Positions 2,907-6,681 of a stretch of DNA of 16,061 bases are shown here, piece by piece. This DNA comes from Methylophilaceae bacterium (GTDB taxonomy: Bacteria > Pseudomonadota > Gammaproteobacteria > Burkholderiales > Methylophilaceae). Location: NCBI GenBank assembly GCA_009926525.1, contig RFOR01000005.1, forward strand, positions 1 to 16,061, given 5' to 3'. The translations under genes were made by a program, and so were the position numbers. Below the pieces are notes generated by a model. It had not been told where the DNA came from. It ran no database searches and saw nothing but the letters and a program-made list of their open reading frames with translations. The number at the start of each line of letters is the position of its first letter. The stretch's first letter is position 1.

Positions 2907-4436
2907 ATGCGCTTTTTTAGATTACTCAAAATTATATTCATCTCACTCAAGTTTGGTCTTGATGAGTTTGTGCTTGCGCATAGCAAATTTGCCTTTCTCC
3001 GAAAAACAATTCAAACCGTATTATTTTTCCGTAACAGCAAACAATCCCGCGGCGAACGCCTGCGTTTGGCGCTTGAAGTACTTGGCCCTATCTTCGTGAA
3101 GTTTGGGCAAATGCTCTCCACACGTCGTGATTTAATTCCACTCGACATCGCTGACGAACTTGCCAAGCTGCAAGACCAGGTGCCGCCGTTTGAGTATGCG
3201 CTGGTCGAAAACATCTTAATCGAGACCTACAAAAAACCTGTTAACCAAATTTTCAGCCAATTTGACGCCACACCGATAGCTAGCGCTTCTGTGGCGCAAG
3301 TGCATTTTGCGCACCTCTTGGATGGCAAGCCAGTGGCGGTCAAGATCTTGCGTCCAGGAATTGCATCCGTTATTCAAAAGGACATCAAGTTGCTTGAGGT
3401 TGCTGCCTGGCTTATTCAGGCCTTGCTTGCCGATGGCAAAAGACTTCGTCCGCGCGAGGTTGTAGAAGACTTCGCACAGCACATCAACAACGAACTTGAC
3501 CTCATGCTTGAGGCCGCGAACTGCAGTTTACTAGGTCGCAACTTCCCGAACAGCCCATTACTTCAAGTACCCGAAGTTTATTGGGACTGGTGCCATGAGC
3601 AGGTCATGGTCATGGAGCGCATGAACGGCACGCCGGTAAGCCAAGTAGATAAACTACGAAGCATGGGCATCGATATCCCAAAACTTGCACGAGATGGTGT
3701 AGAGATTTTCTTCACACAAGTTTTCCGTGATGGCTTTTTCCATGCCGACATGCACCCTGGCAACATTCAAGTCGCTGACGATGGTCGTTACATCGCGCTT
3801 GATTTTGGCATCATGGGCACACTCACCGAAAGTGACAAACAATATTTAGCTCGTAACTTCTTGGCGTTTTTCCGCCGTGACTACCGCGAGGTGGCGCAAG
3901 CGCATATTGAATCGGGCTGGGTGCCAAGCGATGTGTCTATCGACCAATTTGAAACCGCGATTCGTGCAGTGTGTGAGCCTATTTTCAATAAGCCGCTTAA
4001 AGACATCTCATTCGGCCGGGTGCTCATTCGATTGTTCCACACAGCAAGAAGATTTGGCCTCATCATTCAGCCACAACTCACCATGCTCCAAAAAACGTTA
4101 CTTAACGTTGAAGGATTAGGGCGCGATTTAGACCCAGAACTAGACCTATGGAAAACTGCGCAGCCATTTCTTGAGCGATGGATGTCCGAGCAAATTGGCT
4201 GGCGCAGCGTATTAAAACGTATCAAAACAGAGGCGCCACATTGGGGCGCTGTGATACCAACATTACCCCGAAAAATTGACGCGTTTTTAACGCATGACAT
4301 CAATCAAGCTGCAGAGTTAAAACTGGAAGTGTCTCGCTTAAATGATTTGCATCAGAAACAAACACGACTCATCAATGTGCTTAGTGCAGTTTTGATCGGC
4401 CTTGCTTTGTTTGGTATTTTCAAATTAAATCAATAA
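2907..4436 (+). CDS. ubiB: UbiB, atypical ADCK-family kinase of ubiquinone synthesis
   Basis: A 509-aa member of the UbiB/ADCK/COQ8 atypical kinase family, which has ATPase activity and supports ubiquinone synthesis at the inner membrane. Visible motifs are KxGQ-type KFGQ (residues 65-68) with MLSTRRDLIP; the alanine-rich loop ASASVAQVH (126-133) that replaces a protein-kinase P-loop; VAVKILRP (143-150, ATP-binding Lys146); ELDLMLEAAN (196-205); catalytic-loop FFHADMHPGN (277-286); and DFG (299-301). The C-terminus has one clear hydrophobic helix (about 486-506) after a charged coiled-coil-like stretch. It is somewhat shorter than E. coli UbiB (546 aa), but all kinase motifs are intact. ATG is 22 bases after ubiJ and the ribosome binding site is poor (A-rich). 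Confidence 0.96.
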   Translation: MRFFRLLKIIFISLKFGLDEFVLAHSKFAFLRKTIQTVLFFRNSKQSRGERLRLALEVLGPIFVKFGQMLSTRRDLIPLDIADELAKLQDQVPPFEYALVENILIETYKKPVNQIFSQFDATPIASASVAQVHFAHLLDGKPVAVKILRPGIASVIQKDIKLLEVAAWLIQALLADGKRLRPREVVEDFAQHINNELDLMLEAANCSLLGRNFPNSPLLQVPEVYWDWCHEQVMVMERMNGTPVSQVDKLRSMGIDIPKLARDGVEIFFTQVFRDGFFHADMHPGNIQVADDGRYIALDFGIMGTLTESDKQYLARNFLAFFRRDYREVAQAHIESGWVPSDVSIDQFETAIRAVCEPIFNKPLKDISFGRVLIRLFHTARRFGLIIQPQLTMLQKTLLNVEGLGRDLDPELDLWKTAQPFLERWMSEQIGWRSVLKRIKTEAPHWGAVIPTLPRKIDAFLTHDINQAAELKLEVSRLNDLHQKQTRLINVLSAVLIGLALFGIFKLNQ

Positions 4437-4451
4437 GCAATTTGATTGCTT
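4435..4451 (+). terminator. Weak hairpin at the ubiB stop codon
   Basis: A 7-bp stem AAGCAAT / ATTGCTT with loop TTG overlaps the ubiB stop codon. It is AT-rich and followed only by TTAAATTA rather than a clean T run. It is at best a leaky terminator or an mRNA 3'-end stabiliser. Confidence 0.3.
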
Positions 4452-4521
4452 TAAATTAGAGGCACCCTATTTGACGGTACATGTTGACCCTATAACCAGA
4501 AATTAAAAATTTGTAATAATT

Positions 4522-4551
4522 TTGACATGTATTTTCGAAAAAATTTATATG
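4522..4551 (+). promoter_or_regulatory. Predicted sigma-70 promoter upstream of the HU gene
   Basis: Perfect -35 TTGACA (4522-4527), then 18 bases, then -10-like TATATG (4546-4551, 4 of 6 matches) in an AT-rich stretch. Predicted start is near 4558. The terminator-like hairpin at 4579-4603 lies between this promoter and the HU ATG at 4635. Two further TTGAC words (4471, 4484) have no properly spaced -10 box. Confidence 0.5.
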
Positions 4552-4578
4552 AATGCTTCTCCTACGCATTACTCTATT

Positions 4579-4603
4579 GAGCGTCTTTGGACGCTCTTTT
4601 TTT
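4579..4603 (+). terminator. Rho-independent terminator or attenuator in front of HU
   Basis: A perfect 7-bp GC-rich stem GAGCGTC (4579-4585) / GACGCTC (4590-4596) with loop TTTG, followed by seven T (4597-4603). It meets all criteria of an intrinsic terminator. It lies 143 bases after ubiB and 31 bases before the HU start, downstream of the predicted HU promoter. It may stop ubiB read-through, act as a leader attenuator, or end a very short transcript of about 45 nt. Confidence 0.8.
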
Positions 4604-4634
4604 ATCAGTTTTTTGTACTAGATTGGAATTAGAT

Positions 4635-4938
4635 ATGAACAAATCAGAATTAATTGATGCAGTTGCAAACTCTGCAGACCTTTCAAAGGCCTCAGCAGGT
4701 CGAGCTGTTGATGCAACAGTTGCTGCTATTACTGCGGCACTTAAAAAAGGTGAACCAGTTACATTGATTGGCTTTGGTACATTTAAAGTATCACACCGCG
4801 CAGCACGCACAGAAAGTATCACACCGCGCAGCACGCACAGGTCGCAATCCACAAACAGGTGCTGAGTTGAAAATTGCAGCTCGCAAAGCACCAGCATTTA
4901 CTGCAGGCAAAGCATTGAAAGAAGCTGTTAACAAATAA
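4635..4938 (+). pseudogene. hupB: HU-type DNA-binding protein gene, frameshifted by a 28-bp tandem duplication
   Basis: HU is a small nucleoid protein that binds and bends DNA as a dimer. The frame starts normally ([20 protein letters not shown], then [16 protein letters not shown], residues 1-59; Shine-Dalgarno GGA 7 bases upstream). It then shifts because 28 bp are duplicated in tandem. As read, translation continues 17 foreign residues and stops at TGA 4863-4865, giving a 76-aa product without the DNA-binding arm. If one repeat copy is removed, the frame restores a textbook 91-aa HU with [21 protein letters not shown] and the C-terminal helix, ending at 4938. No other damage is visible, so the lesion is recent or is a sequencing/assembly error. 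The HU-beta label rests on general resemblance; other HU/IHF genes may exist elsewhere in the genome. Confidence 0.9.
4785..4840 (+). repeat. Exact 28-bp tandem duplication inside the HU gene
   Basis: Copy 1 is 4785-4812 and copy 2 is 4813-4840. Each begins AAAGTATCACACC and ends GCACGCACAG, with no mismatch between copies and no spacer. Because 28 is not a multiple of 3, the copy number sets the HU reading frame. The flanking bases (T before copy 1, G after copy 2) do not extend the repeat, so there is no microhomology beyond the unit itself. Confidence 0.97.
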
Positions 4939-4953
4939 AGCTCTTAAATGGAT

Positions 4954-4983
4954 AAAAAAAGCTAGGCGAGCCTAGCTTTTTTT
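4954..4983. terminator. Bidirectional rho-independent terminator after HU
   Basis: GCTAGG (4961-4966) / CCTAGC (4971-4976) with loop CGAG, flanked by seven A (4954-4960) and seven T (4977-4983). It works on the plus strand for HU and, by its symmetry, on the minus strand for the small ORF that stops at 4996. Confidence 0.92.
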
Positions 4984-4995
4984 ATGTGCTGAAAA

Positions 4996-5094
4996 TCAAT
5001 TATTGTCGAGCCACTTTGAGAATACGTAAAGAATGAAGCTCACCACGACCAAAATCCCAACCAATGTTGCAATGCCTTGCCATCCGAAAAACAT
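4996..5094 (-). CDS. Putative 32-aa single-span membrane protein
   Basis: Unrecognised. A 32-codon ORF runs from ATG (5094) to TGA (4996). It starts MFFGWQG, continues with a clean hydrophobic helix (about residues 7-25, IATLVGILVVVSFILYVF), then SKWLDNN, a short charged tail, which predicts a single transmembrane span. A very strong purine-rich ribosome binding site (six G followed by AAA) lies 5 to 6 bases before the ATG, which is the best evidence that it is translated. It has its own space between the HU terminator, which it converges on, and the miaB promoter, from which it diverges. A minus-strand TATAAC (5125-5120) is a possible -10, but no convincing -35 accompanies it. The function is unknown and I see no similarity to the 33-aa ORF near ccoS. 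Confidence 0.55.
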   Translation of the reverse strand: MFFGWQGIATLVGILVVVSFILYVFSKWLDNN

Positions 5095-5203
5095 ATGATT
5101 TCCCCCCAAGTATTTTGTTGTTATAAAAATTACGTATTAAATTGTGCCACAGATTTAATCAAAATTGATAGCACGCCTACTTTATGAATAAATGATATGG
5201 CGT

Positions 5204-5232
5204 TTGGCATTCCACTCTTGCTAAGCTACAAT
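5204..5232 (+). promoter_or_regulatory. Predicted sigma-70 promoter of the miaB operon
   Basis: -35 TTGGCA (5204-5209, 5 of 6), a 17-base spacer, and -10 TACAAT (5227-5232, 5 of 6). A start near 5239 gives a leader of about 99 bases before the miaB ATG. This is the best-matching promoter in the window. Confidence 0.65.
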
Positions 5233-5337
5233 TAAGGCTTATCTTTTTGAGTTTTAAATCTATTTTGCGAAGTTGCTCCTGCAGCCCTCCTACAACGCCC
5301 CACCACGTGCCTTTCAGCGCGCAAAGTTTGCTTAGCC

Positions 5338-6681
5338 ATGCACTCCCCTAAAAAAGTATTCATCAAAACCTTTGGTTGCCAGATGAACGAATACGACTCG
5401 TCACGCATGGCAGATATGCTGTCATCGTCAGACGGCATGGTAGAAACCGACAAAGCGGAAGATGCCGATGTCATTTTGCTCAACACCTGCTCAGTCCGCG
5501 AAAAAGCCGAAGATAAAGTGTTTAGTCACCTTGGCCGTTTTGTTGAGCTCAAAGAGAAAAATCCAAACTTAGTGATTGGCGTTGGTGGTTGTGTGGCTTC
5601 ACAAGAGGGTGACAACATCATCAAACGTGCGCCTTACGTGGATATCGTTTTTGGTCCACAGACCTTGCACCGCTTGCCGGAGATGATCAAAAACAAGCAA
5701 TCTAGCGGCACATCGCAGGTTGACATCAGCTTCCCTGAAATTGAAAAGTTTGACCATTTACCACCGCCACGTGTTGAAGGCGCGAGTGCTTTTTTAAGCA
5801 TCATGGAAGGTTGTAGCAAATACTGTACATTTTGTGTGGTGCCTTATACCCGAGGCGAAGAAGTCTCCCGCCCATTTGAAGATATTCTGACCGAAGCGAT
5901 TCAGTTGGCAGAGCAAGGCGTGAAAGAAATCACCCTGCTCGGACAAAACGTAAATGCTTACCGCACTGAATACCAAGGCGACACAGCTGATTTAGCATTA
6001 TTGATTGAGACCATTGCCGAAATTCCACAAATCGAGCGCATACGTTTTACCACCAGCCATCCAAATGAAATGAGCGAGCAATTAATTAACTGCTTCGCTA
6101 ATGTGCCAAAACTGGCGACACAACTGCACCTGCCGGTACAGGCTGGTAGCGACCGTATTCTGATGGCGATGAAGCGCAATTACACTGGGCTTCAGTTCAA
6201 ATCGATTGTTCGCAAGCTACGTACTGCCAATCCTAATCTTACATTCACCTCTGACTTTATTATTGGCTTCCCGGGGGAAACCGAAGCGGACTTTGAGGCC
6301 ACAGTAAAGCTCATGCAAGACGTTGGATTTGATGCGAGCTTTAGCTTTCTATACAGCCCGCGCCCCGGTACCCCAGCAGCATTCTTAAAAGACGATGTGG
6401 ATGAAGCCACAAAACTAGCGCGCCTAGATAAACTGCAAGCCATTAACGAAGCACAAGCCAAAGCCATATCCGAAGCGATGCTGGGCACAGTGCAACGTGT
6501 ATTGATTGAAGGCGCCTCCTGGAAGGATGCTTCATTGCTTGCAGGCAAAACTGACAACAACCGTGTGGTGGATATTGAAGGTGATGCAAGCCTCATACAC
6601 CAATTTGTGAACGTAACAATTACCGATGTCTCTAACCCACGCCGTTTAGTTGGCATTATTTTTGAACAGACGATTGAATAA
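5338..6681 (+). CDS. miaB: MiaB, tRNA-2-methylthio-N6-isopentenyladenosine synthase
   Basis: A 447-aa radical-SAM methylthiotransferase that converts i6A37 to ms2i6A37 in tRNAs reading UNN codons. Layout: N-terminal UPF0004 domain with the auxiliary-cluster cysteines C14 ([11 protein letters not shown]), C51 ([13 protein letters not shown]) and C85 (GGCVASQEG); radical-SAM core with CxxxCxxC at C159/C163/C166 ([16 protein letters not shown]); and a C-terminal TRAM domain (about 380-445). All six cluster ligands are present. Length matches the family (E. coli 474 aa). The ATG at 5338 is the only usual start before the conserved N-terminus, yet it has no Shine-Dalgarno sequence. It heads the conserved series miaB-phoH-ybeY-corC and overlaps phoH by one base (TAATG). 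Confidence 0.98.

Follow-up and report, generated by a model that had tools for sequence, protein, structure and literature searches.

A frame-breaking 28-bp tandem duplication in an HU gene of a Methylophilaceae bacterium is very probably an assembly artefact

The HU gene of the window (the whole 16,061-nt stretch of DNA that was analysed) contains an exact 28-bp tandem duplication, which leaves the two parts of the gene in different reading frames. The duplication is real in the sequence file, but most likely it is not a biological feature. Our analysis indicates that the extra 28 bp very probably stem from a join error in assembly, in which the overlap between two contigs was left uncollapsed. 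This explanation is the best supported, because two more frame-breaking exact copies exist in the same MAG, the one in carB is contradicted by another contig of that MAG (C191), and a single-copy version of this HU is present in a protein collection (P0001).

Results

The HU gene as it stands in the assembly

TRF reported an array at 4785-4840 with a period of 28, 2.0 copies and 100% matches, composed of two identical, abutting copies (Table 1). The 28-mer occurs twice in the 16,061-nt window, with no further occurrence at up to three mismatches, and the maximum 28-mer count in 200 shuffled windows was 0. The period-28 self-match at HU is exactly 28 positions long, with zero added matching bases at either edge. 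Starting from the ATG at 4635, the HU frame reaches a stop at 4863-4865 and encodes 59 HU residues followed by 17 foreign ones. The C-terminal part of HU is read in another frame from 4813, giving 41 aa before the stop at 4936-4938. The Pfam profile PF00216 matches the first piece over profile positions 1-64 and the second over 51-90, in differing frames, and the full 90-position profile in one frame is absent from the assembled gene. The region past profile position 64, which is missing from the assembled frame, presumably includes the arm that binds DNA and the final helix. A preliminary description of this DNA had claimed two identical, adjacent copies, a 76-aa product with 17 foreign residues and an HU gene otherwise intact to 4938, and our results bear out all three claims.

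Table 1. Positions in the window of the HU gene, its duplicated unit and the neighbouring genes
Feature	Coordinates	Strand	Remarks
Left neighbour of HU (presumably ubiB)	2907..4436	+	matched in 9 of 9 other genus genomes
HU gene, frame as assembled	4635..4865	+	76 aa: residues 1-59 HU, 60-76 foreign
First copy of the 28-bp unit	4785..4812	+	TRF, 28-mer search, comparator alignment
Second, identical 28-bp copy	4813..4840	+	shares its frame with the C-terminal part of HU
HU C-terminal part	4813..4938	+	41 aa and stop; frame differs from that of the start; PF00216
Right neighbour of HU (presumably miaB)	5338..6681	+	matched in 9 of 9 other genus genomes

The surroundings of the gene contain two hairpin-like elements. 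Upstream of HU, a terminator-like hairpin and its T run occupy 4579-4603, leaving about 30 bases to the start codon (one found; shuffles average 0.7). After HU, an inverted repeat, likewise with a T run, is located at 4952-4986; it is absent from the list of the terminator scan and is also seen about 350 bp before miaB in two other genomes of the genus (G002 and G004). An Rfam scan gave no match, and a search of a phage collection returned three records, matching at 60-80% identity.

Single-copy versions and the possibility of a slippage switch

Comparison with related strains had been proposed in the preliminary description. We aligned the gene with five relatives and with the MAG's own HU paralog on contig C120, all picked from the fetched loci. 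The 28 bases are missing at this site in all six chosen comparators, which hold the segment once. P0001, a 95-aa protein of the collection, agrees with the window at every position of HU residues 1-59 and of the C-terminal 41 residues, has no duplication, and shares LELD, the four residues upstream of the HU start. It is recorded from one contig of 3,189 bp with 12 member sequences. Its source mark, '-', is that of window-encoded proteins, yet the window has no single frame for it. P0001 may come from the same sample as the window, and it could come from another cell line. P0002, a close allele from another contig, likewise lacks the duplication. Published literature, searched at title and abstract level, gave no description of this HU duplication.

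The existence of one-copy (P0001) and two-copy versions in sequence collections, together with a unit length not divisible by 3, would suit a reversible switch in which slippage takes the unit from one copy to two and back, turning HU off and on. The two forms would then coexist in one population, duplication and deletion of the 28 bp turning the accessory HU off in part of the cells. Such a switch is highly improbable here. A slippage locus would be expected to have several units or edge homology and to persist among relatives at differing copy numbers, whereas this site has only two copies, no matching bases at its edges and a single copy in each of the six comparators. Because the self-match ends exactly at 28 bases, a one-copy cell would lack a repeat that could restore the second copy, and by simple arithmetic a third copy would leave the gene out of frame as well. 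Hairpin-driven slippage was also considered and discarded, as the single-strand folds are unremarkable (z of -1.17, -0.84 and +0.97). Finally, a 91-residue HU query found a match in 149 of 150 family genomes, and among the matches listed the HU rows span residues 1-90 or 2-90 of the query and contain no internal stops.

Genomic setting

The window is the entire contig C137. The MAG to which this contig belongs totals 821,986 bases, split into 202 contigs, and is 77.14% complete and 2.9% contaminated. The best match of UbiE among the 80 loci kept is L005, from the uncultured Methylophilaceae bacterium isolate AlinenLipids_bin-0238, at 98% identity, and this similarity to Methylophilaceae suggests that the host is probably an uncultured methylotroph.

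HU is located between genes that we take to be ubiB and miaB. This interval (window 4436-5338) is a variable spot in the genus, filled by HU here, by other open frames spanning about 3.3 kb in G002, and reduced to a gap of 176-466 bp in seven of the nine other genomes. HU was not found in these seven short gaps by blastn with window 4300-5400 as the query. In the remaining genome, G004, ubiB and miaB are on separate contigs and the closest HU is located elsewhere. The MAG encodes a second HU in an open frame on C120, which scores above the cut-off for PF00216 and reaches 137.3 bits for HU-beta, below the NCBIfam cut-off of 157. A further PF00216 protein, which we take to resemble IHF-alpha, is encoded on C124. 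Since seven of the nine other genus members have a short, HU-free ubiB-miaB gap and C120 carries an open-frame HU, the window HU is an accessory copy or paralog. The search for other hup or ihf genes suggested in the preliminary description was answered by C120 and C124. The emphasis of that description on a global nucleoid protein loses weight for an accessory paralog accompanied by another open-frame HU.

Other tandem duplications in the MAG

Tandem copies with a period of 12-600, at least 94% alike and with a unit that is itself non-periodic, were sought in 81 loci of the MAG; N occurs in 16 of these loci, and the readable sequence amounts to 449,260 bases. Exact copies of at least 16 bp numbered three, with lengths of 17, 28 and 49 bp. 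None of these lengths is divisible by 3, and the copies break the genes for a [2Fe-2S]/FAD/NAD reductase, HU and carB, respectively. Edge homology amounts to zero bases at the 28-bp and 49-bp copies and to one base at the 17-bp copy. The remaining copies listed, an exact 15-bp, an exact 12-bp and a near-exact 18-bp one, all have in-frame lengths.

Two sets of control sequences were scanned. The same-genus controls, 646,038 bases in all (400,000 from G007, a one-contig relative, 116,370 from G005, 45,405 from G006 and 84,263 from other genus stretches), contain no exact tandem copy of 16 bp or more, the longest period being 15 bp. The control made up of the 80 loci kept for UbiE (788,765 bases, mostly from other Betaproteobacteria, periods of at least 15 listed) has three exact copies, all of 18 bp and hence frame-preserving. 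With a 16-bp limit chosen post hoc, after the data were seen, frame-changing exact copies number three in 449 kb of the MAG versus none in 1,434,803 control bases, a few stretches of which overlap one another (for example L223 and apparently L005). Because the window was picked for its duplication, the fair contrast leaves it out, with two events in about 433 kb versus none in 1.43 Mb; taken alone, this contrast is modest. Shorter exact control copies with lengths that are not multiples of 3 occur in G007 (13 and 14 bp) and G009 (14 bp), and the MAG has no such copy at 12-15 bp.

The reductase gene on C144 (L124) carries its exact 17-bp tandem copy at 5241-5275; the Fer2 and FAD-binding domains share a frame, and the NAD-binding domain is read in a different one. 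The stretch is matched in eight of the nine other genus genomes (four relatives aligned), being exactly 17 bp shorter in seven and 20 bp shorter in G001; G002 gave no match to it.

In carB, the exact 49-bp tandem copy is located at 5450-5547 of C142 (L122), and the two pieces of the gene match the carbamoyl-phosphate synthase large subunit profile over 144-251 and 235-1057. All nine other genus genomes match over 575 bp versus the 624-bp query, 49 fewer (five were aligned with C142). Moreover, C191 (L281) of the same MAG overlaps C142 at carB and holds a single copy of the unit. The last 99 bp of C191 equal C142:5400-5498, and no other pair sharing a 99-bp end was found among the 66 readable MAG sequences compared. 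C142 and C191 are 89% identical over 325 bp ending with the unit, and the base directly preceding the unit differs between them. The opposite end of C142 overlaps C171, with 88.6% identity over 580 bp (L122 1-580 versus L246 3155-3734). Because C142 differs in this way from both overlapping contigs, the bin holds two or more close strains, of which C142 is probably a mosaic, and the carB duplication starts where the strains branch. The pattern fits what would be expected if a strain-specific contig had been linked with a shared one and both instances of the overlap retained. Support from strain differences is limited to carB: no second contig covering the duplication was found in the MAG for HU or for the reductase, and no sign of a strain mosaic was found in the window itself.

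Two further candidate lines of evidence were rejected. In a series of contigs ordered by length, C137 with its 16,061 bp has a 6,083-bp contig on either side, which could have been taken as a sign of a later merge. Since other long contigs (C80, C126, C148, C159 and C170) are out of order as well, its place would be explained by sorting by name. Shared contig ends were discarded as evidence, the contigs concerned reading N (15 masked loci).

The duplications bear on another explanation, namely that one strain of the population carries a real and recent duplication and has lost its accessory HU, a loss tolerated since the HU on C120 is present. The exactness of the duplication and the readable remainder of the gene agree with such a private mutation, as do the accessory status of HU next to seven relatives with a short, apparently HU-free gap, and the open frame on C120. 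It would, however, require the same rare event again in two further genes that are usually kept, carB being one of them. The single-copy P0001 and the lack of edge homology at the 28-bp copies also speak against it, and we consider a private mutation unlikely.

Discussion

The preliminary description had offered three readings of the duplication: a recent gene loss, a slippage switch and an artefact. The last is the best supported in our analysis, the switch is disfavoured by its two copies, missing edge homology and lack of a notable hairpin, and the recent loss keeps a small share of the probability. For the assembly error, we propose that one contig broke off within HU, that another began within it, sharing 28 bp with the first, and that the two were placed end to end with this overlap left uncollapsed. 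The join might have been made during scaffolding or gap closing, in a sample with at least two close strains. Living cells would then carry HU once, in an intact form. An uncollapsed overlap should have abrupt edges that are not driven by sequence, and the 28-bp copies are exact with zero extra matching bases; further duplicates of the kind should exist in the same assembly, as they do in carB and the reductase gene within the 449,260 bases scanned. By analogy, the HU event probably arose in the same way as the carB event, for which C191 provides the second contig at the join.

Where a fragmented MAG is drawn from mixed strains, an exact tandem copy at a contig join can pass for a frameshifted pseudogene or a phase-variable switch. 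The rate of frame-breaking exact duplications across a single MAG offers a quick test that needs no reads.

Both HU pieces of the window match the profile of the HU family (PF00216), although, unlike full family members, the assembled frame lacks the profile past position 64. Contingency loci typically consist of many short units. The window resembles phase-variable contingency loci with slipped-strand mispairing in having, inside a reading frame, a repeat whose length is not a multiple of 3, but differs in having two long copies, with no mixture of states shown.

A likeness to known assembly errors is found in Chen et al. 2020 (PMC7111523), who describe, for IDBA-UD and CLC assemblies, scaffold joins made despite an overlap that leave duplicate sequence. 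They also state that, where scaffold ends overlap perfectly, the overlap is often as long as the largest k-mer or one base shorter (PMC7111523); the 99-bp overlap of C191 and C142, a single case, would fit such a k-mer value. In the errors described there, the copies are separated by Ns, whereas those of the window abut directly. The window otherwise shares with these errors a short duplicate at a probable join, a fragmented MAG with strain variation and frame breaks in genes that are otherwise readable.
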